Source: a virus. Taken from it: a DNA stretch of 43,169 nt. Below the pieces are notes generated by a model, which saw only the letters and a program-made list of their open reading frames with translations, had not been told where the DNA came from and did not search any database. Both the position numbers and the translations under genes were made by a program. Positions 8,120 through 20,850 of this stretch are shown here, piece by piece. Where the stretch lies: the IMG/VR virus record IMGVR_UViG_3300034355_001276, positions 1 to 43,169 of that record, one strand, 5' to 3'. Each line of letters starts with the position of its first letter. Position 1 is the first letter of the stretch.

Positions 8120-8249
8120 GGTAAGATCCTCTCAAGTGACTTGTTCACTGCAAGGGTGGAGTTAGACCGCGAAATCAGGACTCTGCCCTTGCCTTTTCTC
8201 TACATTAACCCCCACTTCTTAGAATGTCAAGCCATAACTTTAATTATTT

Positions 8250-8280
8250 TTGATTTTGTATCCCCCTGATACAAAATCAA
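8250..8280. promoter_or_regulatory. Perfect 13-bp inverted repeat upstream of the PcfJ-like operon
   Basis: TTGATTTTGTATC (8250-8262), a 5-base CCCCT loop, and the exact complement (8268-8280). It lies about 130 bp upstream of the PcfJ-like start. On the minus strand it could be a terminator-like stem or a dimeric repressor site. The 180 bp between 8120 and 8300 hold no other feature that I can support. Confidence 0.5.
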
Positions 8281-8294
8281 CATCCCTATCCCTA

Positions 8295-8334
8295 TAATCA
8301 AAAAATAACCCTCTAAAATATTTAGAGGGTTTAA
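8295..8334. terminator. Terminator hairpin; right copy of the flanking direct repeat
   Basis: AACCCTCTAAA (8307-8317) pairs with TTTAGAGGGTT (8321-8331). The stretch is nearly identical to 5548-5587, including the TAATCAAAAAATA lead-in, with single-base indels only. It separates the leftward PcfJ operon from the rightward nblA region. Confidence 0.75.
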
Positions 8335-8359
8335 TCCCATGAGTAAACATTAATAAAAA

Positions 8360-8575
8360 ATGAATTCACCAACAAAGGATGGATACGCATCCGCACTAAA
8401 AGAACTCTCCTCACTCCTTGGGGGTCAAATAGCCTATCACTTTCCTGATTATCAGGCAATATTAGAATACGCATTGGCAAATTAAATCCATTATCAGGAG
8501 CAATTGGCAACAGGTAAATCAAAAAAATATTTTGATTCTGTATTAAAGAGATATAAAAATCAAAATATTTTTTGA
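8360..8575 (+). pseudogene. Small helical protein gene interrupted by an in-frame TAA
   Basis: From the ATG at 8360, 41 codons (..GGQIAYHFPDYQAILEYALAN) run to a TAA at 8483. The same frame then continues with equally protein-like sequence (IHYQEQLATGKSKKYFDSV..) to a TGA at 8573. The simplest reading is one gene of about 71 codons broken by a single point mutation. A genuine 41-residue peptide is the alternative. Not recognised. Confidence 0.45.
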
Positions 8576-8581
8576 TATAAT
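8518..8581 (+). promoter_or_regulatory. nblA promoter with twin inverted-repeat operators
   Basis: Two copies of ATCAAAA-(4 to 5 nt)-TTTTGAT (8518-8536 and 8559-8576) have centres about 40 bp apart, roughly four helical turns. The second overlaps a perfect TATAAT -10 box (8576-8581). Binding of a dimeric repressor there would block the promoter. The nblA start follows at 8612. Confidence 0.5.
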
Positions 8582-8611
8582 CTATGTGTTGATATTCTTA
8601 TAACAACGGAA

Positions 8612-8776
8612 ATGGAACCAACACAGCTAACAATGGAGCAAGAATTTAAACTTGCGATAATTAAACGTAATGTCAATATATTGACACTGGAGGAAGCTAG
8701 AGAATATATAATTCAATTAGTACGGCAAGATATGATTAAAGATGATTTGATTAAAAATTGGATGAGGATGAAATGA
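8612..8776 (+). CDS. nblA: NblA, phycobilisome degradation protein
   Basis: 54 residues. The sequence LTMEQEFKLAIIKRNV, then LTLEEAREYIIQLVRQ and MIKDDLIKNW, follows the NblA pattern throughout: an N-terminal LtlEQeFkL, a central eeAqefL and a C-terminal RQmmvkdnlik. It has the family's normal size of 50-65 residues. NblA binds phycobiliproteins and delivers them to Clp protease, bleaching the cell. Freshwater cyanophages carry nblA, probably to free amino acids or adjust light capture during infection. Its stop overlaps the next start (ATGA), so it is coupled to thymidylate kinase. It has its own promoter with operator-like repeats. Confidence 0.93.
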   Translation: MEPTQLTMEQEFKLAIIKRNVNILTLEEAREYIIQLVRQDMIKDDLIKNWMRMK

Positions 8777-9369
8777 GTAAATTGATTGCTTTTGAAGGCA
8801 TTGACCGCAGTGGCAAAACAACCCAAATTAGAAAACTTTGCGACCATTTCACGGCGTTAAAGTTAAAGTTTTACATCACAAGAGAACCCTGTGATTATGA
8901 CGTTCGGTTTGAATTAAAGAATGGGCTTTTGACACCGGAGCAGCAGCTTAAATTAATCCTGAAGGATAGGATTAAACACAATCCCACGATTAGATATTTG
9001 TTAGAAGATTCTGATTTGGTATTGTGCGATCGATACACGGATTCAACTCTTGCTTATCAGGGGTATGGGCACGGGCTTAATTTAGATAATTTAAGGAAGC
9101 TAAATCACGAGGCGACGGGGGGAATTGATCCCGATATGGTGATTTTGTTCGATTGTCCTGTTGAGGTGGCGGTGCGCCGCGATCTCGACAAACCTCTGGA
9201 CAAGGTTGAAAGAGACTTACTTTTTTTAGATCGGGTTCGGTTTGGATATCTTGAATTGGCGAGGGAGAATAACTGGATTGTGATTAACGCAACGCAAACA
9301 ACTACCCGAATAACTCAGGAAATATCTGGCATTCTGATGGGGATTATTCCTGTCCCTGTGATTAGATAA
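8773..9369 (+). CDS. tmk: Thymidylate kinase (dTMP kinase)
   Basis: 198 residues from the ATG at 8773, which overlaps the nblA stop by 4 bp. The P-loop EGIDRSGKTTQ is at residues 8-18, REPCD in the DR[YH]-loop region, and CDRYTDSTLAYQGYG carries the substrate-binding motif. The LID region is short. The enzyme phosphorylates dTMP to dTDP, which raises dTTP supply for phage DNA synthesis. Length and motifs indicate an intact enzyme. A terminator follows at 9379. Linking nblA to a nucleotide-supply gene fits a host-takeover operon. Confidence 0.92.
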   Translation: MSKLIAFEGIDRSGKTTQIRKLCDHFTALKLKFYITREPCDYDVRFELKNGLLTPEQQLKLILKDRIKHNPTIRYLLEDSDLVLCDRYTDSTLAYQGYGHGLNLDNLRKLNHEATGGIDPDMVILFDCPVEVAVRRDLDKPLDKVERDLLFLDRVRFGYLELARENNWIVINATQTTTRITQEISGILMGIIPVPVIR

Positions 9370-9378
9370 ACAGCAAAA

Positions 9379-9410
9379 AACCAGGGGTTTATATTCCCTG
9401 GTTAGTTTTA
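9379..9410 (+). terminator. Terminator after tmk
   Basis: AACCAGGG (9379-9386) pairs with CCCTGGTT (9396-9403), followed by TAGTTTTA. It lies 10 bp after the tmk stop and faces the leftward gene ending at 9429. Confidence 0.8.
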
Positions 9411-9428
9411 AGTTGAATTAGAGGTCTT

Positions 9429-9587
9429 TTAATTCCATTCCTCTAACTCTAATTCTTCCCCTACAAAATCAGGGAATTGGGTATAAAACCTTGTCAAAGC
9501 CTCTAGTTCATTTAGGGCTTCGAGGTAATACCCTTGTCTGTTTGCCTTGTTGGGCGCAGTTTTGACCCGTGTAATGCGATAAATCAT
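9429..9587 (-). CDS. Small hypothetical protein with a strong ribosome-binding site
   Basis: 52 residues (MIYRITRVKTAPNKANRQGY then an acidic tail ending ELELEEW). A textbook CAGGAGGATATT precedes the ATG at 9587, which argues that the frame is real. It is 13 bp downstream of the gene ending at 9601, in the same direction. No family recognised. Confidence 0.65.
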   Translation of the reverse strand: MIYRITRVKTAPNKANRQGYYLEALNELEALTRFYTQFPDFVGEELELEEWN

Positions 9588-9600
9588 AATATCCTCCTGT

Positions 9601-9942
9601 TTAGTTGATAAAAATTTGCTTGTTGATTAGCAAAACGTTTTGAGCCGTCAACACAGGGGATTCATCCTTTTTAAACACAAATGAGTTGTATTTGTAGGGG
9701 TTGTAAGTAACAGCTTGATCACAGTTTTTCACTGTGTCAGTCAATGTTCCTACAACGCAAGCGTGGACGTTTTTACGCTGCTCTCGGATCACCCGTTGCC
9801 GTCCGGCTTCAGAAACTTTGAATGTAGCATTTATTAATTTAACTTCTGTTTCGTGGGCTATTACCCGCCCCTTATTTTCACCTTCAAGGGCGACTACCGA
9901 AAAACATCTCTTATGGAGATTGAAATAGACTTTAACTTTCAT
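9601..9942 (-). CDS. Conserved phage-type hypothetical protein
   Basis: 113 residues. The pattern KVYFNLHKRCFSV, then GRVIAH and KVSEAGRQRVIREQRKNVHA, is one I associate with small conserved proteins of many phages, of unknown function. It is soluble and basic. The leader upstream contains a stem-loop (9980-10007). It probably starts a two-gene leftward unit with the gene at 9429. Confidence 0.7.
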   Translation of the reverse strand: MKVKVYFNLHKRCFSVVALEGENKGRVIAHETEVKLINATFKVSEAGRQRVIREQRKNVHACVVGTLTDTVKNCDQAVTYNPYKYNSFVFKKDESPVLTAQNVLLINKQIFIN

Positions 9943-9979
9943 GGTATACTCCTAATTGACCTAAAATGATTGACTTGAG

Positions 9980-10007
9980 AGCAAGTAGGGCAGCCACCTT
10001 ACTTGCT
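9980..10007. promoter_or_regulatory. Stem-loop between 9942 and 10058
   Basis: AGCAAGTA (9980-9987) and TACTTGCT (10000-10007) form an 8-bp stem that can be extended by GG/CC with one bulge. It lies in the 115-bp gap between two leftward genes, either as the terminator of the integrase unit or as a leader element of the 9601-9942 gene. No U-tract follows, so a processing or leader role is as likely as termination. Confidence 0.45.
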
Positions 10008-10057
10008 TAACTTTTAACCTTCTGCACTTATAACTGTACCCCACTTATCCCAAAAGG

Positions 10058-10255
10058 TCAACCCCCTCCCCCGACTTTTTTGTAAAGAATTATATCGCCA
10101 CGGGTGATCGCCTCCAGAAATTCTGTCCATGCGGGTTCCGCCGACTCCTGCCTCCAATACCGATAACCCATGCCAACAACTAGGGCTTTCAACTTCTCCC
10201 TATCTTCTGGCTTGAGTCTAGCCTTAATCTCTTGTCTGTTTTCGTGGGGTCTCAT
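10058..10255 (-). CDS. Small basic protein downstream of the integrase
   Basis: 65 residues, charged, with a helix pair (QEIKARLKPEDREKLKALVV) and a central Trp/Tyr segment, ending in GGGG. It lies 51 bp downstream of the integrase stop in the same direction. Size and position would suit an excisionase or recombination directionality factor, but there is no diagnostic motif, so this is context only. Confidence 0.5.
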   Translation of the reverse strand: MRPHENRQEIKARLKPEDREKLKALVVGMGYRYWRQESAEPAWTEFLEAITRGDIILYKKVGGGG

Positions 10256-10306
10256 AAAAAAAATATCCTATATAACTATTCCCCAGTTTATAACAGATTA
10301 TGGAAT

Positions 10307-11443
10307 TTATTCGTCATCTGGGAGCAATACTGGTAAAGATGGTCGGTGGATCACGCTCCCAGCATAATTATTGTAAATAGTCTCAATTCTATTCCCTGCG
10401 AGTTCTGCCATTTCAGCAGGGCTTTTCCCTTGTGATAACCCGTGAGAAATTAGAGTATGGCGGCAGTTTCCGGGCTTGCGATATTCCACGCCAACCTTAG
10501 CTAAAACCTGTTTCCAAGCCCGATTCCTGAAGTTGTGGGAATCAATTGGCAATCCAGTCAAGGAGACAAAAACCGGAGCCTCCGGGTCGGGGTCAATCGG
10601 ACGGATTGCTTTGAGAATATTTTGAAGGCGTGAGGGTAGGGGGATTAAGCGATCACGATTAGTTTTAGTCGATTTCCGCTCACCGGATACCGTTAATTTA
10701 CAGGCTATTAGAACCTCTCCACAATCTTCTGAGAAATGTTTCCACTGGAGCCCGTTTGCTTCACCCGGGCGGCAACCTGTACCCAGTAAAAACTCAACGT
10801 AGGGGAGGTAATGGGAATAATATTGATCCGTTGCAAACCCTTCTAAAATCCGTTTTATTTCCTCAATTGAAAATGGCTTCAACCGTCGTTTTGGCGGAAC
10901 CTTGACCGATACTTCAGTCCAGGGATTATTCTCAACTAATTGACGCTTAATCCCCCACTCGTAAACAGCATTTAAGAATACAATTCTTTCCCTAACTGTG
11001 GCGGGTTCGTTGTGTTGTAGCAGCCAATCACGAAAGCCAAAAGCGGATTTTTCAGTCAGGCTATCATTACCAAAATATTGTTTAATCCTGGGCAAGAAAT
11101 GATTGTATTTATAAAGCGTTTCTGATTCAATTTGTTGCTGTTTGAAAATTAAATATTGCTCAATTAGCCCGACAACTGAAACCGTGACGGGTTTCAATTC
11201 TATTTCTGATTGCGGTTTGTATTTAATCAAGGAGCTATCGAAGTTTCCCGTGGCGCAGTCACCCTGAATCTGTAGCGCGAGTCTTTGAGCCACCATCTGA
11301 TTTAGGGGGTTATCCTCCAATCCTAAGCTCAAAAAATATCTTTTGCCCTGGTGACTCCAAACCAGCCGGAGCCACCCCACCCCCGCCGAACTGATGGTAG
11401 TTTTGACCTGTACGCTTCCCTTGGGTGCTTTCTTCTGAGTCAC
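10307..11443 (-). CDS. int: Tyrosine recombinase (phage integrase)
   Basis: 378 residues. A SAM-like N-terminal arm (about residues 85-180) is followed by the catalytic domain. Arg-I is R225 in GTGCRPGEAN, the beta-hairpin Lys is about K260, Arg-II is R328 in GNCRHTLISHG, and the nucleophile is Y360 in YNNYAG. Two usually conserved His positions differ: the first residue of the HxxR box is Gly (G325), and the His before the nucleophile is Asn (N351). Similar substitutions are tolerated in some families. A tRNA-Pro 3' half (11565-11608) lies 122 bp upstream, and three tandem 10-bp repeats (11470-11499) sit just ahead of the start, so gene and attachment site form one integration module. Confidence 0.92.
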   Translation of the reverse strand: MTQKKAPKGSVQVKTTISSAGVGWLRLVWSHQGKRYFLSLGLEDNPLNQMVAQRLALQIQGDCATGNFDSSLIKYKPQSEIELKPVTVSVVGLIEQYLIFKQQQIESETLYKYNHFLPRIKQYFGNDSLTEKSAFGFRDWLLQHNEPATVRERIVFLNAVYEWGIKRQLVENNPWTEVSVKVPPKRRLKPFSIEEIKRILEGFATDQYYSHYLPYVEFLLGTGCRPGEANGLQWKHFSEDCGEVLIACKLTVSGERKSTKTNRDRLIPLPSRLQNILKAIRPIDPDPEAPVFVSLTGLPIDSHNFRNRAWKQVLAKVGVEYRKPGNCRHTLISHGLSQGKSPAEMAELAGNRIETIYNNYAGSVIHRPSLPVLLPDDE

Positions 11444-11469
11444 AATTGATGATCAATAATCAGGCTAAT

Positions 11470-11499
11470 CTTGTCTAATTTTGTCTAATCTTGTCTAAT
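11470..11499. repeat. Three tandem 10-bp repeats upstream of int
   Basis: (C/T)TTGTCTAAT occurs three times in direct succession (11470-11479, 11480-11489, 11490-11499), 27 bp upstream of the integrase start and 65 bp from the tRNA-Pro segment. Direct repeats at this place are typical of integrase arm-type binding sites or of an excisionase site. They could also repress int transcription. Confidence 0.6.
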
Positions 11500-11525
11500 A
11501 GAAGATTATCAACCATCAGACGGGA

Positions 11526-11557
11526 AAAAGCCAGACCCTTTATAGAATCTGGCTTTT
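11526..11557 (-). terminator. Intrinsic terminator after the tRNA-Pro segment
   Basis: AAAAGCCAGA (11526-11535) pairs perfectly with TCTGGCTTTT (11548-11557). Read on the minus strand it ends in a T-run, 8 bp beyond the tRNA 3' end. The element therefore carries the tRNA 3' half plus a terminator, so a tRNA gene rebuilt by integration would remain properly terminated. Confidence 0.7.
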
Positions 11558-11564
11558 GCGTCTA

Positions 11565-11608
11565 TCGGAGCGACAGGATTTGAACCTGCGACCCCTACCA
11601 CCCCAAGG
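11565..11608 (-). other. attP-like site: 3' half of tRNA-Pro (GGG anticodon)
   Basis: Read on the minus strand, 44 bp match the cyanobacterial tRNA-Pro 3' half: an anticodon loop containing TTGGGGT (anticodon GGG), a variable region, the T-arm GGTTCAAATCC and the acceptor end CGCTCCGA. The 5' half of the tRNA is absent. A tRNA 3' fragment beside a tyrosine integrase is the classic phage attachment site. Genes of element type lie on both sides, so this looks like attP in the unintegrated or circular form, or a contig crossing the site, rather than a host tRNA gene. The core identity has not been checked against a host genome. Confidence 0.8.
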
Positions 11609-11685
11609 TATATTCAATGTAGTTAAACCCTTTCACTGTGGAGTTTTTGAGTGTTTAGGAAGTTGAGATCCCAATTGTTGATCAA

Positions 11686-12000
11686 TTAATCCCAATTTTT
11701 CAAGACTTCAGGGCAATCATCCCAACAGTTCCCCCAATCAGGTAACTCTTGATAGGTTTTATCTAGCTTAACCAAGACGGTTTGACCATTATCGGTGTAG
11801 TAGCCATAGCGGTCATTTTTCATATCAAATAAGACTCCGACCTGTTTACTGTTGCCAGTACCTATGACTTCCCAATCAACAACGTCAATACCAAAACCCA
11901 AAGCGTCAAATTCATCAACGCGATTTAATACCAATTCAATAGCTTCGGGTTCAAAATTATCGGTTTGAGATACCAAGTCTTTCAATGTTAGTGCGTTCAT
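11686..12000 (-). CDS. Hypothetical acidic protein
   Basis: 104 residues, acidic, ending in DWGNCWDDCPEVLKNWD. No membrane segment or known motif. It is the last of three small leftward genes (12599 to 11686) with close spacing. Function unknown. Confidence 0.65.
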   Translation of the reverse strand: MNALTLKDLVSQTDNFEPEAIELVLNRVDEFDALGFGIDVVDWEVIGTGNSKQVGVLFDMKNDRYGYYTDNGQTVLVKLDKTYQELPDWGNCWDDCPEVLKNWD

Positions 12001-12027
12001 GTTTTTTGTCCCAATGGTTTTAACTTC

Positions 12028-12321
12028 TTAATCAAAAGCCCCTGATTCCCAATATTGTTTCGCAGCTTCCCACTGTTCGGCGGTTGCCGCGATGTGAACC
12101 TGATGCCCAATATCTGCGAGCTTGCCTTTGTGATGATTGACGAGAACCCCATTCAAAGACACTCCCTCAACTTGTTTTAAGCCTAAGCTATTGATCAGGG
12201 CATCCATAGTTTCTAGGGTTTTTAACCCGAATCCGTGGGGGTCGTAGGATGTTCGGTTTTCTCCGGTACCGTCCGCCTTCCAGTAACGGGCGTGTAAAAG
12301 TTTTTGAGTCATAATAACCAT
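12028..12321 (-). CDS. Hypothetical protein
   Basis: 97 residues from the ATG at 12321, or 94 from a second ATG at 12312. The gene overlaps the end of the upstream gene by 13 bp. Sequence: basic start (MTQKLLHARYWKADG), then a mixed alpha/beta pattern with VHIAATAEQWEAAKQYWESG at the end. Not recognised. Confidence 0.65.
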   Translation of the reverse strand: MVIMTQKLLHARYWKADGTGENRTSYDPHGFGLKTLETMDALINSLGLKQVEGVSLNGVLVNHHKGKLADIGHQVHIAATAEQWEAAKQYWESGAFD

Positions 12322-12599
12322 CCAAACACTGACTTTCTGACTTGTAAGCGATGATTATTCCATTCTGAGGGCAATCCTTTGTAAATGCTTTGATAACGCT
12401 CTAAGGCTATCTCTGCGATTTCATATATCGCAGAAATAATTTTTGGATTGCCTCGCTTGTTTTCGGGGACGGTTTCTAATATCGCGCCCCCTAAAATAAA
12501 TTTATCATCCGAATCATTTAGCAATCCCATTTCCAGAGCTAACCAAGTAGCTTTAGGATTAGGCATAATTTTAATCAAATCAACCAATTTTTTATTCAT
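12309..12599 (-). CDS. Hypothetical protein
   Basis: 96 residues, mostly helical (IISAIYEIAEIALERYQSIY), soluble. First gene of a three-gene leftward unit overlapping the next start. No recognised domain. The 62 bp upstream hold no clear promoter. Confidence 0.65.
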   Translation of the reverse strand: MNKKLVDLIKIMPNPKATWLALEMGLLNDSDDKFILGGAILETVPENKRGNPKIISAIYEIAEIALERYQSIYKGLPSEWNNHRLQVRKSVFGWLL

Positions 12600-12661
12600 T
12601 TTTCCTACCTTTATATCGTTAACTTTTGCGCGGATTTAAGGCATCGCACCCAGCCCATAAA

Positions 12662-13273
12662 TTATCCATTGAAGCGTCTGTTTTGACTCTGTTGATTGCA
12701 ACAGGCGACGATCCCTGCTTTGTCAATCCTCAATAATCTGAGGATTGATTTTTTATCTTTCAGAATTTGTTTAAATTCCGACTGATCGGAATCGCTATAC
12801 CAAGGTTGGCATTCGTTAACCAAGGCAGCCAATTCCCTCAAAACCTTGGTCATATTTTCCCAAGATATTTTTTCGCAAAAATCGCGGTTTTCGATCCAGA
12901 ACTTGGCTGAAACTGCAATGCCTACCGCTTTCTTGATTTTGATTTCGCCACCTCCAGGTTCGCCACCCAGAGAAGAATAATATTCAGCAAAATCACGGCG
13001 GAGTTTATCCGCCCACTGAATTTGCTTTTCCGACCCCACAAGGGGAGGAAAAAACCAGTCAATTTTTTGTGGCATATCCCAAATAGTTAACTGCTTTGGA
13101 GTCTCCACAACCGCCACCGCTTTCAGGGCTTCTAACCGCCCCTCAAGAATAGTCAATTCAAAAGCCCACTTCCGAATTAGGCTTCGGACGCGGGGGAATT
13201 TTGCAATCAAATTATTTAATTGATTGATTCTTTTGGAAATTTCTTTAGCGGTGGAGATTGTGGAGTTTTTCAT
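12662..13273 (-). CDS. Hypothetical protein with EKQIQWA segment
   Basis: 203 residues from the ATG at 13273. The frame is open further upstream, but that part would overlap the divergent regulator at 13341 and lacks a ribosome-binding site. N-terminal helices (EISKRINQLNNLIAKF) are followed by a linker (KQLTIWDMP) and the segment LVGSEKQIQWADKLRRDF. The GSEKQIxWAexlR pattern recurs in uncharacterised plasmid and phage proteins. A C-terminal helical region follows. QLTIWD weakly resembles a clamp-binding motif. No function assigned. Confidence 0.65.
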   Translation of the reverse strand: MKNSTISTAKEISKRINQLNNLIAKFPRVRSLIRKWAFELTILEGRLEALKAVAVVETPKQLTIWDMPQKIDWFFPPLVGSEKQIQWADKLRRDFAEYYSSLGGEPGGGEIKIKKAVGIAVSAKFWIENRDFCEKISWENMTKVLRELAALVNECQPWYSDSDQSEFKQILKDKKSILRLLRIDKAGIVACCNQQSQNRRFNG

Positions 13274-13340
13274 ATTCAGCCCGATTTGGCGGCGACCCTG
13301 TAAATTTGTTATTCTTAAATCATATATAAAATTTAAAAAT

Positions 13341-13496
13341 ATGTCAAGGGGTAAATGGAAAAAAGCCGAGAAACGCCAAAAGGCTATTCTGGTAATGCTT
13401 TCAGAAGTCGAGAGGGAAAGGCTAGAGGCGATCGCATCCTCAAGAAATCTATCCCTCTCGGAATTGGTCAGATATTGGATCAACAATAATGGGTGA
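13341..13496 (+). CDS. Ribbon-helix-helix (CopG/Arc-type) regulator
   Basis: 51 residues. A basic N terminus (MSRGKWKKAEKRQKA) is followed by the beta-strand AILVMLSEVERERLEAIA and the helix SSRNLSLSELVRYWIN, the RHH layout. It is transcribed divergently from the gene starting at 13273 and stops 14 bp before the first, degenerate CRISPR repeat. Such proteins usually repress their own promoter and neighbours. Whether it controls the CRISPR array is unknown. Confidence 0.75.
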   Translation: MSRGKWKKAEKRQKAILVMLSEVERERLEAIASSRNLSLSELVRYWINNNG

Positions 13497-13510
13497 TCAT
13501 CCCATCTTGA

Positions 13511-14543
13511 GTATCAAATTAGTCAAGAAGCAAGACAATTGTTAACTGTTGATCCAATATCGAATAGTATCAAGTCAGTCAAGAACCAATACAATCATTA
13601 ACTTGTATAGTCCGAACTTTGGGGTAATTCGTTTGCTGCGAGGTATCAAGTCAGTCAAGAACCAATACAATCATTAACACAGCCCACGAATTAGCAGAAA
13701 AATTGGGGGGATTGTCGTATCAAGTCAGTCAAGAACCAATACAATCATTAACCTCCAAAACTTCCCCCCTAACCTTCTCAATTTCAGTTTGTATCAAGTC
13801 AGTCAAGAACCAATACAATCATTAACTTTTAGGCTCGGATTCTAATAGCTTGTATTTTCCATTGTATCAAGTCAGTCAAGAACCAATACAATCATTAACT
13901 CTGGGTAGAAGAACGGCAGAAATTAATAGATGAAGGTATCAAGTCAGTCAAGAACCAATACAATCATTAACTTGACTGGAAAGATTATCAAGATTGGGGA
14001 AGTTTGTATCAAGTCAGTCAAGAACCAATACAATCATTAACTCAATATCCCCAATTCAAATTTACCCCTGTTGACCGTATCAAGTCAGTCAAGAACCAAT
14101 ACAATCATTAACTCTAGGCACGTTATCTGATAAGACTACCTGACACAAGTATCAAGTCAGTCAAGAACCAATACAATCATTAACTGGTAGTGCAGCGTTC
14201 AATCCATCAGAAGCGTCTAGTATCAAGTCAGTCAAGAACCAATACAATCATTAACTATAACTTCAGCAGTAACGGGTGAAATATCAATATTGTATCAAGT
14301 CAGTCAAGAACCAATACAATCATTAACCGTTGTTCGGCTTTGTCCAGTTCCATAATTTCGCCGTATCAAGTCAGTCAAGAACCAATACAATCATTAACCT
14401 CACCTATTAACCAGAATAACAGATACTACCTGGCAATGTATCAAGTCAGTCAAGAACCAATACAATCATTAACCAAAATCCGAGTAATAGGATGAAATGA
14501 TCTCGGTGTATCAAGTCAGTCAAGAACCAATACAATCATTAAC
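13511..14543 (-). CRISPR. CRISPR array, 15 repeats and 14 spacers, next to iscB
   Basis: The 36-bp repeat reads on the plus strand GTATCAAGTCAGTCAAG... to ...CAATCATTAAC. Fourteen copies (13567 to 14543) appear identical; the leftmost (13511-13546) has six mismatches. Spacers from left to right are 20, 40, 38, 38, 37, 36, 34, 35, 36, 35, 36, 35, 39 and 34 nt. A degenerate repeat usually marks the leader-distal end, so I infer transcription on the minus strand from the iscB side, where the repeat begins GTTAATGATTG. The last repeat ends 15 bp from the iscB stop. No cas1, cas2 or interference genes are in the window. The 34-40 nt spacers resemble type I/III/V arrays more than the constant 30 nt of type II. 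I found no spacer matching elsewhere in the window by eye. Confidence 0.97.
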
Positions 14544-14558
14544 TGATTTGATAATAAA

Positions 14559-15857
14559 TTAACTAGAACTACTTACTAGCAATGGTTCGAGGCTTGAATA
14601 GGCATAACCATCTGATTTCTGAAGTAGGCTCAGGCATTTTGGGTGAACGTCCATCTTATCCAATGTAAAACTCGGACGTTGCCGGATCGCAATTCGACCA
14701 TAATGGGTTCCCTTATTCTTTCCAGATGGAATCACAGCCTTAACATAATCCCCTGTTTTATACCCTATAAAACTCTTAATTCTTGCTTTATGGCATTTAG
14801 GAAAGCCATACTTATCGGTTGTGACCCGTTGCCTTACCCCATGCCCTTTAGCTGATATTAATAAAGGTTTAACATCCTTAATAATCAGATTTTCGGGAGT
14901 AGAAGCACCAACGCAAGCCGCGTCAATCCAGTGAGCTTTAGGGAATTTTTGACGGCATCGGTTAAACTTAGTCCGTCCCCCCGTCCCAACTTCTACAGGT
15001 AAGCCAGTCTCCTTCAATCGTTTGTACAAGCACCACCGAGTAGAGTTAACGGCGGCTGCATCTTTGAGAGGGGCTTTAACCCGTTTCAGGATTTTATTAA
15101 GCAATTCCTTCTTTTTAGAAAGGAAATCTTTAATGTCCTTAGCACCCTTTTTTTGATTGCATTTATGGCAAGCGATCGCCAAATTAGAAACCCGATTACT
15201 CCCCCCTTTGGATCTGGGTATCAAGTGTTCAATCTCTAATCTGGTATCAACAGCGCCACAGTAAACGCATTGACGGTCAAACTTCTCCAAAAGGTATTCC
15301 CGAACTTCATACCCCGCTAACTCCCCTTGCTGATACTCGACACCGGAAACTTCTGGATTCTCCATAATTTGAGTGTCGAACCGTACCAATTCTTGAGATA
15401 TCGCAGAAATCGGAGCTAACTTTCTTAACCGATTAACCCAAGTGATCACATTTTCAACCCGTGACATTAGACTCGGAGCTAACCAACCCTTAACCCGTGT
15501 GCGATTAAGAAAACGGGGTTGGCGGTATCTGGTTTTTCTACCTCGGCGACCCCTTCTTAAACTGCGTCGGGATTCCAGTGCATTCTTGATCACCATGCCA
15601 CGATGTTGAATATCAGCACCCCAAACAACTTCACCCGTGCCGTCGTTTACCAAGGCAATGCCAGTAAATTTAGAGCCAGGATCTATCTTTAGCCTCAAGT
15701 CTTCAGTTGAAGATTTGACAGCATATTTTAGGATGATTGTAAAAGGTTGATGCCGAAAAACTGCGGCTTTCTTTTGAGTTAAAAGAATCCTAGCTTTTGC
15801 GGGTGAGATTGGATTTAATGGACGCTTTTCGGTATCCATCACAAAGACTTTAGACAT
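14559..15857 (-). CDS. iscB: IscB RNA-guided nuclease (RuvC plus HNH)
   Basis: 432 residues, within the family range. An N-terminal PLMP domain (residues 1-45, VFVMDTEKRPLNP, AAVFRHQPFTI) precedes RuvC-I with D59 (LRLKIDPGSKFTGIAL). An Arg-rich bridge helix follows (about 96-115, RRSLRRGRRGRKTRYRQPRF), then RuvC-II with E156 (SQELVRFD) and the HNH nuclease (C197-x2-C200, catalytic H211 in IEHLIPRSKGGS, C230-x2-C233). RuvC-III has H309 and D312 (KAHWIDAA), and a C-terminal target-motif-recognition part follows. All catalytic residues are present. IscB is the transposon-encoded ancestor of Cas9 and cuts DNA using an omega-RNA encoded just upstream. No TnpA transposase is in the window. The start overlaps the 3' end of the predicted omega-RNA, and the stop lies 15 bp from the CRISPR array. 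Confidence 0.96.
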   Translation of the reverse strand: MSKVFVMDTEKRPLNPISPAKARILLTQKKAAVFRHQPFTIILKYAVKSSTEDLRLKIDPGSKFTGIALVNDGTGEVVWGADIQHRGMVIKNALESRRSLRRGRRGRKTRYRQPRFLNRTRVKGWLAPSLMSRVENVITWVNRLRKLAPISAISQELVRFDTQIMENPEVSGVEYQQGELAGYEVREYLLEKFDRQCVYCGAVDTRLEIEHLIPRSKGGSNRVSNLAIACHKCNQKKGAKDIKDFLSKKKELLNKILKRVKAPLKDAAAVNSTRWCLYKRLKETGLPVEVGTGGRTKFNRCRQKFPKAHWIDAACVGASTPENLIIKDVKPLLISAKGHGVRQRVTTDKYGFPKCHKARIKSFIGYKTGDYVKAVIPSGKNKGTHYGRIAIRQRPSFTLDKMDVHPKCLSLLQKSDGYAYSSLEPLLVSSSS

Positions 15858-16110
15858 TTAAAAATAACTCTTTCGAGCCTCCGATAAATCGGGTAATGTG
15901 TGCCTCGTCAATGTTATTGGGCGGTACTATCTAAGTGACACTGACTTAATTGCTGTACATCTGTTTAATCACTTAGTTATAGAGCTTGGAACTGGCAACG
16001 CATCCCAAGGTATGAACTTAAACACTTCCCAATAACGTAGCTCAGTAAAGAGCTTAGACTGGTTAACTATTTACCAACAAACTACATTGGTAAATTTTGA
16101 TTCTTGACTG
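15858..16110 (-). ncRNA. Predicted omega-RNA (HEARO-type) for IscB, with 5' anti-repeat
   Basis: About 250 nt without a reading frame directly upstream of iscB, where IscB omega-RNAs (Rfam HEARO) are encoded. Visible structure, 5' to 3' on the minus strand: an anti-repeat-like segment (16097-16110); a hairpin TTTACCAA/TTGGTAAA (16070-16094); an AGCTC/GAGCT hairpin (16039-16054); a 9-bp long-range stem joining 16028-16036 with 15913-15921 (GTTATTGGG); a CCGA/TCGG hairpin (15881-15892); and CTC-GAAA-GAG with a GNRA loop (15868-15877), ending by the iscB start. The usual omega-RNA has a guide at its 5' end. Here that position holds CAGTCAAGAATCAA, complementary to the CRISPR repeat. Exact ends are predictions. 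Confidence 0.82.
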
Positions 16111-16115
16111 TTTTC

Positions 16116-16144
16116 ATTATACACAAATAACGTAAAAAAAACAA
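16116..16144 (-). promoter_or_regulatory. Promoter of the omega-RNA / iscB transcript
   Basis: On the minus strand, TTGTTT (-35, 16139-16144) is followed after exactly 17 bp by TATAAT (-10, 16116-16121). Transcription would start around 16108-16111, that is at or within a base or two of the anti-repeat. There is therefore no room for a normal variable guide ahead of it. Confidence 0.65.
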
Positions 16145-16168
16145 GTTTATTTGTGTATTTTTAAAAGG

Positions 16169-16612
16169 TCAAGAGCAAAAGCAATCGTCAACCTTACTAA
16201 TCTCGATATCAACGCACAAATCCTTGAGTCGCTCATAAGCCACCACCGGATCGGCTTCAAAATCAACCGGACTAGATCCGTCCATCGGCAAGTCTGACAC
16301 CGCCCCCAATGGCTCATAAGCCCTTGATTTATTATTCCAAAAAAATACTCGGTTAATATGTCGCTCTGCTGCTTCGGGGGTTTCCAAGAAACAATAGATC
16401 AACCCCGTAACAATTGCCTGCCGGACATCTGTTCTGAATCGCCGTTTGTCGAGTTTGATCGTCCACAATTCGGTCAGGAGTTCCTCGTCGGTGGCAGCAT
16501 CATACCAGAGACACTCACAAGAGAATGTGTGGAGGTCGTTGGCATGAATTTTTTGGGCGGGTTGAAATCCTTTTTTAGCGGGTTTGGTTTTGGCTTTAGT
16601 TAATGTTTTCAT
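16169..16612 (-). CDS. Hypothetical protein downstream of dcm
   Basis: 147 residues: a basic N-terminal tail (KTLTKAKTKPAKKG), then an alpha/beta region with C..WYDAATDEELLTELW and a C-terminal Cys pair (DDCFCS). It starts 2 bp after the dcm stop, so it is co-translated with it, and it is the last gene of the replication operon. No recognised domain. It ends 25 bp before the -35 box of the omega-RNA promoter. Confidence 0.65.
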   Translation of the reverse strand: MKTLTKAKTKPAKKGFQPAQKIHANDLHTFSCECLWYDAATDEELLTELWTIKLDKRRFRTDVRQAIVTGLIYCFLETPEAAERHINRVFFWNNKSRAYEPLGAVSDLPMDGSSPVDFEADPVVAYERLKDLCVDIEISKVDDCFCS

Positions 16613-16614
16613 GG

Positions 16615-17649
16615 TTAGTTAATTGATTTTAAGATTGCCAGACCTAATTCTTTAGCCAATAACGGAGGCACGGCGTTTCCTATTATTTGTTGGCTTAAAG
16701 TTTTGGATTCTGGGAATTGATAGGAGTCGGGGAAAGTCTGGAGCCGTGCCGTCGCTTTCTGACTAATTCGTTTAACTTGACTTCCCTCCATGATGTCCGC
16801 CCAGTGGGTATGCCGCCCCGATGCCATAGCTCGAATTGTTGGGCAGGGTTTGTCCGAGGGGGTTGGGAGGATATTTTTGATACAAGCGCCTGCACGGGGG
16901 ACTAATAAAACGGGTGAATGGTAGCCACTATGATCGGTTAATAGGGTAAAACTCGGATCGTTCCCATCTCTGGCCGTAGCTGGTTTATGTCGATTCTTAC
17001 TAATATCAATCAAGGCTTTTTCTGGCAAATAACCCAATTCATTCAGTCGCTTAATCTGCCAGTCTGCAAGCTCACAATCACTCATCTCAGGGATTAAATC
17101 ACTAATAGCTTGATACCATCCCTTTCTAGGCTTTGATTCGGGAAAATATGGGAGGGGTTCTGAGTTTTTGACCGCCCACATGATTAATCGTTTCCGGTTC
17201 TGTGGAACCCCATAATCCGCCGCGTCAAGAATCAACCAATGGTAGCGATATCCGTAGCGAATTAAGGATTGTAGAATCTTCTCGAATACAGGTGATTTTG
17301 AATATCCTGGGACGTTTTCTAAAACTACCCATTGAGGATCAATCGCTGCGATATAACTGCTACAGTACAGCCCCGCGTCCTTGTCTTTGTGATCACCTAA
17401 ATTACCCCGTCTAGCGTTTGAATACTGTTGGCACGGGGGACTCATCCAAAGCAGGTCAACATAGGGAAGACTGCGGGGGTTTATGTCTCCTGCGCAAGAA
17501 TTAAATACTTTGGTATTTGGGAAATTTAATCGTGCTACTTCTGCAATTTTAGGATCTCTTTCAATTCCCCATAAAGACTTAAACCCTGCGGCCTCTAACC
17601 CCAAATCTGCACCGCCACCGCCTGTAAATAATGTTGCAAATGTTAACAT
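16615..17649 (-). CDS. dcm: DNA (cytosine-5) methyltransferase
   Basis: 344 residues with the C5-methyltransferase motifs in order: FTGGGGADLGLEAAGF (I, AdoMet binding), PPCQQYS with catalytic C73 (IV), ENVPG (VI), PQNRKRLIMWA (VIII), a target-recognition region, then QKATARLQTFPDSY (IX) and QIIGNAVPPLLAKE (X). It transfers a methyl group from AdoMet to C5 of cytosine. No cognate restriction enzyme is adjacent, so it is probably a solitary phage methylase that protects against host restriction. It shares a base with the upstream gene's stop (17649). Confidence 0.93.
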   Translation of the reverse strand: MLTFATLFTGGGGADLGLEAAGFKSLWGIERDPKIAEVARLNFPNTKVFNSCAGDINPRSLPYVDLLWMSPPCQQYSNARRGNLGDHKDKDAGLYCSSYIAAIDPQWVVLENVPGYSKSPVFEKILQSLIRYGYRYHWLILDAADYGVPQNRKRLIMWAVKNSEPLPYFPESKPRKGWYQAISDLIPEMSDCELADWQIKRLNELGYLPEKALIDISKNRHKPATARDGNDPSFTLLTDHSGYHSPVLLVPRAGACIKNILPTPSDKPCPTIRAMASGRHTHWADIMEGSQVKRISQKATARLQTFPDSYQFPESKTLSQQIIGNAVPPLLAKELGLAILKSIN

Positions 17650-18227
17650 TAGAAATCCTCCTCAACAATCGTTAAGCCACAGCCGGGGAGTAATAAGTTA
17701 GGATCATTTGATGAACTTAAAACCACCATCCCAGAAGGTAAACACTCCCGAACAGTTAGAATCACATTGCCAAAATTCTTATCACTGGTGTGAACGCGAT
17801 CGCCTTCTTTAAAAGCATAATCACCCAACAATATTTGTTCCCCCATGACCATCCGAACAAATAACTTTATTTTGTCCGAGTCTAGGGATTCTCGGACTCC
17901 ACCCCATGCCCATTCAATTGTTATTTTATTTCTTCGACAATTAACAATCCGCCCAATATATCGAGGGTCGCTTTTAAGTTGAACAATATCTGTTTTTTTG
18001 AATGGGCTTGAATCGGAAACTTCCTCAAAATCTAGGGTTTCCGATCTATGTAAATTCCCTGTTTTTTCGTTAGTTATTTGACAGGTTTGTTTTATTGAAT
18101 TAAATCCCTCAACCCGCCAAGCTGTTCCCTTAATTAAATAGTTTGGGCGGTGTTTGTGAGGGTCAATTTCTACCCAGTCACCGACTTTTAAAAGTCTTTC
18201 AAATATCTTCTTGGTTGCTGCGGTCAT
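17649..18227 (-). CDS. Hypothetical beta-rich protein with KOW/SH3-like repeats
   Basis: 192 residues from the ATG at 18227; an open frame extends upstream but overlaps another gene. Several short segments of the same character recur: LKVGDWVEIDP, FKKTDIVQLKSDPRYIGRI and FKEGDRVHTSDKNFGNV. These look like repeated SH3/KOW-like beta-barrels, which often bind nucleic acid. That is inference from pattern. It lies between a winged-helix protein and Dcm in the replication operon. Confidence 0.65.
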   Translation of the reverse strand: MTAATKKIFERLLKVGDWVEIDPHKHRPNYLIKGTAWRVEGFNSIKQTCQITNEKTGNLHRSETLDFEEVSDSSPFKKTDIVQLKSDPRYIGRIVNCRRNKITIEWAWGGVRESLDSDKIKLFVRMVMGEQILLGDYAFKEGDRVHTSDKNFGNVILTVRECLPSGMVVLSSSNDPNLLLPGCGLTIVEEDF

Positions 18228-18235
18228 GACGTTAA

Positions 18236-18655
18236 TTAACCTCTGTATTTTCGGGTCGGTGTTTCTAATGCTTTCTTTAATGACCACCCCCGTTGAAGTC
18301 TTTGAGCAAAATATTGGAGGGTCATCGGGGGGTTTTGGTTTTTGTAAATCCATTCGACGGTATGTTGTCTTCCTCTGAAATAATAGGTTTTAAAAATGGG
18401 ATTAGGGGGGATGATTTTGTCTTTAATCTCCTGGATTCTTTCTTCTGACAGTGGTTCGATTTCGTATCTGCCATAAGTTAGTGGTTTAATGATTCCAAAC
18501 TTAAGAAACCGTTTTATTCGGGTATTTGCGTTTGGAATATTCAAATTAAACTTATCGCGCATTTCTTGAACTTTAAAGGAAGTTTTACCTTGTCTCTGTT
18601 GTTCGTAAAACCAATTGATAATACTTCCTAAGTCTTCCCAACCAAGTCTATCCAT
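18236..18655 (-). CDS. Winged-helix-like DNA-binding protein
   Basis: 139 residues. Residues about 10-70 (SIINWFYEQQRQGKTSF, then VQEMRDKFNL, NANTRIKRFLKFGIIKPL, YGRYEIEPL) have the helix-helix-wing order of a winged helix-turn-helix. The C-terminal part is basic and includes a second helical unit (LQYFAQRLQRGWSLKKAL), typical of small homing-type DNA-binding modules. Role in replication or operon regulation is unknown. Confidence 0.65.
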   Translation of the reverse strand: MDRLGWEDLGSIINWFYEQQRQGKTSFKVQEMRDKFNLNIPNANTRIKRFLKFGIIKPLTYGRYEIEPLSEERIQEIKDKIIPPNPIFKTYYFRGRQHTVEWIYKNQNPPMTLQYFAQRLQRGWSLKKALETPTRKYRG

Positions 18656-18661
18656 TAGTCG

Positions 18662-18940
18662 TCAGAGTTTAAAGGTTGTACCGAAAACTGTTACTTCCTT
18701 GTTTATTAGTAGTAACATTGCTATTGCTTTGGATAATTTAACAACGTTTTTCGCTGTTTCTTTGGTGTGAAAAAGAATGGTGTCACCTTTTTCGGAAACT
18801 ACCTGACCACACTCGCGCAACTCTTTGTTAAATCTGGATGTCCCTGGCTCGAGTTCGCGCAATTTTAATTCATAAAGTTGTAGTGGTACATGGAATTCAA
18901 GAAATGCAATCAACTCATCTCGTTTTGTTGAATTTTCCAT
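18662..18940 (-). CDS. Small hypothetical protein in the replication operon
   Basis: 92 residues, AGGAGAG before the ATG. Charged N-terminal half and a hydrophobic stretch near the C terminus (KAIAMLLLINKEVTVFG) that is probably core structure rather than a membrane helix. It sits directly after dnaB. Not recognised. Confidence 0.65.
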   Translation of the reverse strand: MENSTKRDELIAFLEFHVPLQLYELKLRELEPGTSRFNKELRECGQVVSEKGDTILFHTKETAKNVVKLSKAIAMLLLINKEVTVFGTTFKL

Positions 18941-18949
18941 TTAACTCTC

Positions 18950-20263
18950 CTAGTTAGACCTCGCTAAATTTTTAAATTGGGTAAATTGAGAATCAAATAA
19001 TAACTTGACCGTTCCGGTGGGGCCGTTGCGATGTTTGGCTAAAATTAACTCTGCAATTCCCTCGTCCGAAGTGTTGGGATTATAATAATCATCTCGATAG
19101 ATCATCATTACTAAGTCCGCGTCTTGTTCAATTGAGCCCGATTCTCTCAAGTCTGAAAGCATTGGGCGTTTATTGGTGCGCTGTTCGACGCTACGACTCA
19201 ACTGAGACAGGACAACTACAGGAACGTTTAAATCTTTTGCCATTCCCTTTAATCCCCGTGTAATTCTTGACAATTCTTGCACCCGATTATCACTTCCTCC
19301 GTCCATTAATTGCAGATAATCTATTAGGATTAATCCTAATTTTCCATCGTTTTCGGCTTGCAATTTTTGGGCTTTTTTCTTGATTTCGTTAACTGTTGGA
19401 TTCGAGGTGTCGTCAATAAAAATCGGTAATTCTGCTAAGGAACTAATTGCGGTTGTCAAAGGTTCCCATTCCTCTTGCTGAATGTTTCCCGAACGAATGC
19501 GGGTACTTTCAATTTTGGTTTCGCTCGATAATAGTCTTTGGACTAATTGACCTTTGGACATTTCTAAACTGAAGACCGCGACGGGTAACCCTTTTTTGGC
19601 AATGTTATATCCAAAATTTAAAGCCAAACTCGATTTGCCCATTGCAGGTCTTCCTGCCACAATAATTAAGTCGGTGTGTTGGAATCCTCCAGTCATGGCA
19701 TCGAGGTCATAAAATCCAGAGGGGACACCGGGGGGAATCTTGCTTTCGCTCCGGTCTTCAATTTCTTGAAAGGTATCAATTAAAGTTTCACCAATCGAAA
19801 CTAAATCCTGTTGTGATTTTGATTGGGAAATATTAGCAATTTGTTCCTCTGACTTTTGGAGAATTGTCTCTAAAGGTTGACTGGTATCTTCTGCCAATTC
19901 AATAATTTTATGGGCAGATTCAATTAGGTTTCTTCGAGTTTGCTTATCGGCAATTAACAGCCCGTATTGATCAATGTTAACTGCTGAAACTGTGCGGTCT
20001 AATAATTGGGTTAATCCTAATTGTCCCCCGGCTTTCTCAAGTAATTTCTGATCGGATAACCAGGTAGTGACGGTCATTAAATCCGTGGTTATTCCCTCGG
20101 AATGTAATGCTAAAGCTGCTTTGTAGATTGTTTGATGCGATCGCAGGGAAAAAGATTTAGCAGTTAGCGAGTCTGCAACTCGCCCCATAGCTTCGGGGTC
20201 TAAGAGAATCGCTCCCAAAACGGCTTGTTCTGCCTCAACGTTTTGCATGATTATTGTTTCCAT
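18950..20263 (-). CDS. dnaB: Replicative DNA helicase, DnaB-like
   Basis: 437 residues, full length for DnaB and with no intein. The N-terminal DnaB domain (QNVEAEQAVLGAILLDPEAM, residues 7-105) and a linker are followed by the RecA-like ATPase, with Walker A GRPAMGKSS (204-212, K210), SLEMSKGQL, Walker B LILIDYLQLM, and a conserved region with QLSRSVEQR and LRESGSIEQDADLV. The hexamer unwinds the phage fork 5' to 3'. Its ATG shares a base with the stop of the preceding gene, which probably encodes its loader. Carrying its own helicase makes element replication largely independent of host DnaB recruitment. Confidence 0.95.
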   Translation of the reverse strand: METIIMQNVEAEQAVLGAILLDPEAMGRVADSLTAKSFSLRSHQTIYKAALALHSEGITTDLMTVTTWLSDQKLLEKAGGQLGLTQLLDRTVSAVNIDQYGLLIADKQTRRNLIESAHKIIELAEDTSQPLETILQKSEEQIANISQSKSQQDLVSIGETLIDTFQEIEDRSESKIPPGVPSGFYDLDAMTGGFQHTDLIIVAGRPAMGKSSLALNFGYNIAKKGLPVAVFSLEMSKGQLVQRLLSSETKIESTRIRSGNIQQEEWEPLTTAISSLAELPIFIDDTSNPTVNEIKKKAQKLQAENDGKLGLILIDYLQLMDGGSDNRVQELSRITRGLKGMAKDLNVPVVVLSQLSRSVEQRTNKRPMLSDLRESGSIEQDADLVMMIYRDDYYNPNTSDEGIAELILAKHRNGPTGTVKLLFDSQFTQFKNLARSN

Positions 20264-20850
20264 TATTTCGCTCCATTTAAGTTTTTATTCATTTTTGTGG
20301 CGATCAGGTTATTTAGAAATTCCTGATTTTTTAACTTCTGTTCCTCTGAAATCTGTGGCTTGAGTCCATTGGGCTTGAACTCGATTTGCTCACGGGGGAT
20401 GACCTGCGTGGGACGCTCAAATTCTCGCGGGGCTTTTCGGTAGGCTTGCCAATGAGTCTTGAAATCGTTGCTCAGGTAGTTGAGTTGGGTACTTTCAATC
20501 GACCCAAGGTGAGACATCCCTCCGAGTTGAACGATTGCATATTGACTCGCATCGTCTAAATTATTCAACGGGAGGCGTTTAGCAAGCGATTCTAGGCATC
20601 TTGACCAACAGTTACTTACTAACTCACGTTCGGATTCTTTAACGAGGCTTACAAGCTCTTTTCCCGTGGGACACTTGCTAAGGTTGAAAATTGCCTCACG
20701 GATTGCAGTCTCAAATTCTTCAGCTGATAACTCCTGAGAGAGTTTGTCGAACCAAATTTCATATTTGAGTTCGGTGAAAATCGCGTCGGAAAAATTTTCT
20801 TTCAGGTTTTCAATTCCCTGATCAAAGATTTCATCGTTAAGCTCGGTCAT
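20263..20850 (-). CDS. Probable helicase loader or replisome accessory protein
   Basis: 195 residues, largely helical and acidic, with a conserved-looking centre (CPTGKELVSLVKESERELV...CWSRCLESLAKRL). It lies between the O-like initiator and DnaB and overlaps the dnaB start by one base, which is the usual place of a helicase loader (lambda P, DnaC or DnaI type). There is no AAA+ Walker motif, so a lambda P-like loader is the better model. The assignment rests on synteny. Confidence 0.6.
   Translation of the reverse strand: MTELNDEIFDQGIENLKENFSDAIFTELKYEIWFDKLSQELSAEEFETAIREAIFNLSKCPTGKELVSLVKESERELVSNCWSRCLESLAKRLPLNNLDDASQYAIVQLGGMSHLGSIESTQLNYLSNDFKTHWQAYRKAPREFERPTQVIPREQIEFKPNGLKPQISEEQKLKNQEFLNNLIATKMNKNLNGAK

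Follow-up and report, generated by a model that had tools for sequence, protein, structure and literature searches.

The stretch of viral DNA considered here, IMG/VR virus record IMGVR_UViG_3300034355_001276 (43,169 nucleotides (nt); hereafter the window, with L-numbers denoting related loci compared with it), carries on its minus strand an iscB gene, which is preceded by a HEARO omega-RNA and followed by an array of clustered regularly interspaced short palindromic repeats (CRISPR). Read along that strand, the order is promoter (16144-16116), omega-RNA, iscB and array (Table 1), and the arrangement points to what is probably an IscB carried by a phage, directed by CRISPR spacers and served by an omega-RNA that is split by nature. 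The kinship of the source is with the Planktothrix phage PaV-LD, by which the 12-kb stretch 8000-20300 is 56% covered at 91% identity.

Table 1. Features of the iscB locus in the window
Feature	Position	Strand	Basis or remark
R0, a truncated repeat standing alone where the upstream gene ends, connected to the array leader	16168..16192	-	
Weak -35 box TTGTTT	16139..16144	-	3/6 to TTGACA; spacer to -10 box 17-22 among relatives
-10 box TATAAT (sister clade: TACAAT)	16116..16121	-	6 nt from AGTCAAG in 8 variants
Anti-repeat CAGTCAAGAATCAA, putative 3' strand of split hairpin A	16097..16110	-	14/14 pairing with repeat nt 14-27
HEARO omega-RNA scaffold	15893..16108	-	Rfam RF02033, 125.2 bits, E 1.2e-25
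Hairpin B, stem with UUUACCAA/UUGGUAAA	16069..16095	-	Fold; closing pair A-U / G-U / G-C across clades
P1 3' strand GUUAAC, not paired in cis; complementary to GUUAAY at the 5' end of the repeat	16062..16067	-	6/6 in trans, all clades
iscB, 432 aa, RRXRR + HNH, RuvC and HNH residues present	14559..15857	-	Pfam; PDB IscB alignments; dN/dS
Gap from iscB stop to first repeat, 15 nt (97-98 nt in L005, L006, L008, L011)	14544..14558	-	
CRISPR array: 14 identical 36-nt repeats, 1 degenerate distal repeat, 14 spacers; newest end adjoins iscB	13511..14543	-	
P1 5' strand GUUAAU, first repeat, identical in every intact repeat	14538..14543	-	
Hairpin A 5' strand UUGGUUCUUGACUG, first repeat	14517..14530	-	Pairing, fold
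Spacer 1; protospacer (4 mismatches) in an iscB-less sibling phage, L065 contig	14474..14507	-	

The HEARO RNA, recognized by its match to RF02033, lies immediately 5' of iscB on the same strand. The protein matches Pfam PF14239 (RRXRR; E 8.8e-73) and also an HNH domain, and its catalytic D, E, H and D positions, together with the RuvC and HNH motifs, align with solved IscB chains from the PDB; by sequence, the enzyme is catalytically intact. With 432 residues it is no Cas9-sized effector with a recognition (REC) lobe. Between the window and L006, 72 synonymous and 15 non-synonymous changes were counted in iscB, a ratio of non-synonymous to synonymous substitution rates (dN/dS) of 0.055, and the range across comparisons was 0.03-0.21. 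In the omega-RNA, pair-preserving changes were seen in hairpin B (A-U, G-U, G-C) and as double changes in two core pairs, while two predicted pairs were broken. By these substitution patterns IscB is under purifying selection, and protein and RNA are both maintained. A Pfam scan of the neighbouring genes gave no transposase, no search aimed at IS200/IS605 TnpA having been made. Further upstream, the repeat-like stretch 16157-16192, although it lies inside an open reading frame and resembles a chance match, is a real truncated repeat.

Promoter, anti-repeat and repeat

The first-pass annotation had read TTGTTT-17 bp-TATAAT on the minus strand as a promoter with a start at about 16108-16111 and had placed the omega-RNA 5' end at the anti-repeat. 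Both boxes are present at this spacing, and 6 nt separate the -10 box, a perfect match to consensus, from A16109, the predicted transcript start and second base of the 14-nt anti-repeat; the first base, C16110, probably lies just outside the transcript. The anti-repeat spans the predicted start as anticipated, and the distance from the -10 box to AGTCAAG was the same in all eight sequence variants obtained from relatives. The 17-bp spacing holds for the window and not beyond it, being 17, 18 or 22 among relatives because the T-run between the boxes changes length; it is therefore the -10 box and the start that are conserved, and the figure of 17 bp is not meaningful as such. A standard promoter scan did not list the site at 16144-16116 and gave a second promoter-like site at 16172-16144, but the scan itself performed at chance level, so that the promoter call rests on conservation.

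Outside the array, and on both strands of the 43-kb window, CAGTCAAGAATCAA is the sole site that pairs 14/14 with the minus-strand repeat when at most one G-U pair is allowed; such sites occurred in none of 12 Markov controls of 42 kb each. The 14-nt complementarity is beyond chance. It involves repeat nt 14-27, of which all 14 are paired in the window and 13-14 in the other clades, and the two partners co-vary, with CAG/CTG in the window and TAG/CTA in L011 and L012. The first pair of the anti-repeat thereby changes from C-G in the window to U-A in these two loci, with both sides altered. An anti-repeat of this type is shared with the trans-activating CRISPR RNA (tracrRNA) of type II CRISPR-Cas.

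A probable split of the omega-RNA

Canonical HEARO RNAs are built in the order guide, P1 5' strand, hairpin A, hairpin B, P1 3' strand and core. P1 is formed in cis in nine of nine inspected controls (the four relatives L014, L018, L019 and L028 and five cyanobacterial plasmid IscBs, L200-L204, at 59-62% identity), and its strands co-vary among them (GUCAAC/GUUGAC, GUCAGU/ACUGAC, GUCAGC/GCUGAC and GUCAAU/AUUGAC). The phage omega-RNAs, if they begin at the predicted start, have no guide at the 5' end, and their local 5' sequence GUCAAGAA is mismatched with the P1 3' strand GUUAAC at positions 3, 6 and 7. Repeat nt 1-6 (GUUAAU or GUUAAC), on the other hand, pair fully with that strand in every clade, and once repeat nt 1-27 are placed directly in front of the omega-RNA, the local fold consists of exactly P1 (6 bp), hairpin A (14 bp) and hairpin B (11 bp) in three clades. 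The omega-RNA appears to have been opened in the loop of hairpin A, with the repeat holding the P1 5' strand and half of hairpin A, and the omega-RNA the rest. The suggestion that the anti-repeat occupies the guide position stands in so far as the omega-RNA has no room for a guide; the structural slot of the anti-repeat is a different one, in the first hairpin enclosed by P1, of which it makes up the 3' strand. Since every spacer directly precedes a repeat beginning GUUAAY, it is the spacer that sits where the guide of a normal omega-RNA is found.

On this basis, a minus-strand transcript from the promoter at 16116-16144, starting at about 16109, would deliver a guide-less, tracrRNA-like omega-RNA and then iscB, with the array most likely on the same transcript after iscB. 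A CRISPR RNA (crRNA) unit would consist of a spacer and a repeat. Once processed and paired, repeat nt 1-6 would form P1 with GUUAAC of the omega-RNA and repeat nt 14-27 would form hairpin A with the anti-repeat, while the omega-RNA would supply hairpin B and the HEARO core. With the spacer in the place of the guide, IscB would cut DNA matching that spacer, the probable use being against related phages that compete for the same Planktothrix cell; new spacers would be acquired via the Cas1-Cas2 of the host.

Arrays, spacers and states of the locus

The arrays are co-directional with iscB and begin 15-98 nt downstream of it. The window, L002 and L003 carry the same array, L004 has one spacer more, and L006 and L008 have older spacers in common while their iscB ends differ; spacers are therefore gained near iscB, and what adjoins the gene is an array of identical repeats with spacer turnover. 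In L005, two neighbouring spacers (CAACTTAGAAAACTATCC...) are identical, a recent duplication of the spacer-repeat unit. Five of 68 spacers (longer than 27 nt) match sibling Planktothrix phages of the PaV-LD group outside arrays, with 0, 1, 3, 4 and 5 mismatches, among them the newest spacer of the window, whose match (4 mismatches) lies in an iscB-less sibling. Searched as 24-mers against IMG/VR, window spacers 1 and 2 gave matches in arrays only. A search of 11 phage contigs, fragments included, gave no Cas1 (PF01867; Cas2 was not searched for), from which we infer that the spacers are probably added by host proteins. The repeat itself, whose origin in the host was considered, had no match among cyanobacterial genomes of the Arthrospira order (388) or family (61), a test that is not exclusive as the sets overlap and hold one genome per species.

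The gene that borders the locus on its upstream side turned up in 43 viral loci, among which four states could be distinguished: leader, omega-RNA, iscB and array; the leader joined straight to a two-repeat array without iscB (L064, L065, L072); a single stand-alone repeat (L131, L143, L145); and no repeat (L175, PaV-LD). Repeats number 9-19 at loci with full-length iscB where the contig does not end. In a tree of the upstream gene, full, mini and empty states occur intermixed, and the locus has therefore been gained and lost often; the gene is short and recombination likely, so the tree does not order the states. In L012 and L160, 13 extra nucleotides in the omega-RNA restore P1 in cis, and the last iscB codons extend into the first repeat; these loci may represent a natural single-RNA form or a recombinant. 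In the iscB-less phages L131 and L145, the stand-alone 36-nt repeat lies at the end of the upstream gene and is bordered by TCAAG on both sides, whereas L175 and L176 have one TCAAG and no repeat, such that the stand-alone repeat looks like an insertion with a 5-nt duplication. Solitary repeat-like units occur between small phage genes in L008 and relatives, 2.6-3.2 kb past the iscB start, and in L163-L174, some of them shortly before a start codon (GATGCACAAAAGAGGAGACTAATGG); they may be array relics or regulatory sites.

Two further features of the window lie apart from the locus. At 11557-11612 on the minus strand, just upstream of an integrase gene (10307-11443), a sequence resembles the 3' end of a tRNA gene (GGTTCAAATCC); a whole tRNA was not found there, and the sequence is a possible attachment site. 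A 645-residue protein with a C-terminal PcfJ-like domain is encoded at 6182-8119, likewise on the minus strand.

Competing readings and known systems

Several findings weigh against a CRISPR-guided IscB with a split omega-RNA. The energy of the whole duplex, a weaker test than the site search, was equalled by 21 of 1000 dinucleotide-shuffled repeats. When the full-length RNA is folded, another helix outcompetes P1 in the window and L006 (pair probability 0.02), and only L011 keeps P1 (0.8); the linker between P1 and hairpin A measures 7 nt in the repeat as compared with 1 nt in canonical HEARO. The omega-RNA of L012 contains the first 17 nt of the repeat, which restores P1 in cis, and its Rfam match begins at that GUUAAC. 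No target-adjacent motif (TAM) could be called, the five 3' flanks (CATAAAA, GTGGTTA, AGGGAGT, ACGGAAT, AAGTAAA) being too few. One of the five matching spacers, the recent spacer 2 of L006/L007, also has an exact match in the phage that carries it, where a small conserved gene begins (homologue at window 10216-10252 (+)); the system would then be either tolerant of a self-match or regulatory. Finally, some sibling phages keep the leader and a two-repeat array without iscB, and the array may for this reason also serve host Cas proteins.

Carried further, the last point gives the rival that survives best, although it is an unlikely one: the array would be a phage mini-CRISPR for host Cas proteins, of the sort suggested for cyanophage N-1, HEARO and iscB a passenger between leader and first repeat, and the anti-repeat a feature of the leader. 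In its favour are the iscB-less siblings, whose leader has the same anti-repeat and passes directly into a short array, the outcome of the Cas1 search and the phage arrays known without cas genes, as in cyanophage N-1 (PMC6293099). Yet the repeat is missing from the cyanobacterial genomes surveyed, iscB-less arrays hold 2 repeats against the 9-19 cited above, and neither the loss of the P1 5' strand while iscB and the core stay selected nor the fit of repeat 5' ends to P1 3' strands is explained.

Still less probable is homing with a fixed guide, in which, at least in the L012 type, the leader (about AGUCAAGAAUCAAGGUUUACCA) would serve as an ordinary guide and IscB would spread the element by cutting siblings without iscB at their empty junction of leader and repeat. 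This is precisely how L012 is arranged, with the start, 22 nt and a GUUAAC that pairs with the P1 3' strand; the matching junction is present in L064, L065 and L072, and the tree shows full, mini and empty sites side by side. P1 in cis is confined to the L012 type, however, with the window, L005, L006, L008 and L011 having hairpin B instead, and the long, changing arrays are left unexplained.

The remaining two rivals are highly improbable. That CAGTCAAGAATCAA is itself a fixed guide by which IscB cuts CRISPR arrays, as the first-pass annotation had also proposed, draws on the identity of 13 of its 14 bases to the plus strand in all intact repeats of the window, but at 14 nt it is too short, it would leave P1 without a 5' strand and be self-destructive in its own genome, and none of the aligned array repeats matches it completely, each having at least the C/T (or A/T, G/T) difference near its 3', TAM-side end, which in the window RNA is an acceptable G-U of the kind normal for RNA pairing. 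An ordinary omega-RNA started upstream, with GUGUAUAAUGAAAACA as guide and the anti-repeat match due to chance, could appeal to the Rfam alignment of GUCAAG to the P1 5' strand and to the promoter-like site at 16172-16144, but that strand is mismatched in cis in all these phages, the chance expectation of the anti-repeat is near zero, and the 16 nt upstream, GTGTATAATGAAAACA, match only this locus in 2.8 Mb of fetched DNA.

The wider bearing of a CRISPR-guided IscB with a split omega-RNA lies in the central question of Cas9 origins, that is, by what route a transposon nuclease with one RNA turned into a nuclease with two RNAs that takes its guides from an array. The locus indicates where the RNA can split and which half enters the repeat, and the natural variants (P1 in cis, P1 split, no iscB) allow each step to be tested. 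We lean, with some reserve, towards regarding it as a still living intermediate on the way from IscB to Cas9, a transition that a phage family would have replayed: the omega-RNA would have been split at its first hairpin and the guide-side half placed in the CRISPR repeat, and the Planktothrix phages that direct the system at their siblings would hold the full, cis-restored, mini-array and empty states side by side. If so, IscB would be wielded by phages against phages and rank among the smallest array-guided DNA cutters.

With the IscB/HEARO systems of the OMEGA (obligate mobile element-guided activity) type (RF02033; cyanobacterial plasmid IscBs, 58-62% identity), the locus has in common the RRXRR/HNH nuclease and the HEARO core RNA upstream on the same strand; it differs in that the omega-RNA lacks a guide, P1 and hairpin A would be completed by the CRISPR repeat, and an array is attached. 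IscB beside a CRISPR array was reportedly described by Altae-Tran et al. in 2021, and a 2025 paper by Zhang et al. (Nat Commun 16:10693), listed among the references of PMC12991159, names CRISPR-associated IscB in its title. The present form, a variant of this already known kind, is phage-borne, cas1 was not found, and intermediate and deleted states are visible. In one survey, HEARO systems were not CRISPR-associated (PMC9755519). Type II CRISPR-Cas9 likewise combines a RuvC and HNH effector with spacer-repeat units whose pairing partner is the 5'-terminal anti-repeat of a trans RNA, whereas here the protein is IscB rather than one of Cas9 size, the RNA has a HEARO core, and adaptation genes were not found (cas1 search only). 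Among cyanophages, CL131 carries an array with a TnpB-like V-U2 effector and N-1 an array without cas genes (PMC6293099); a phage-borne array with a transposon-derived nuclease or no cas genes is thus common ground, but these belong to the TnpB/Cas12 side, where no tracrRNA was found, while the window phage has IscB with an anti-repeat. A phage Cas9 homologue without an array of its own has a tracrRNA that fits host repeats and was proposed to be an anti-CRISPR (PMC10910872); the anti-repeat is shared, and that of the window fits the phage's own array instead. As a variant it deserves testing for its phage setting, for the split point that can be seen in it and for its targets in sibling phages.
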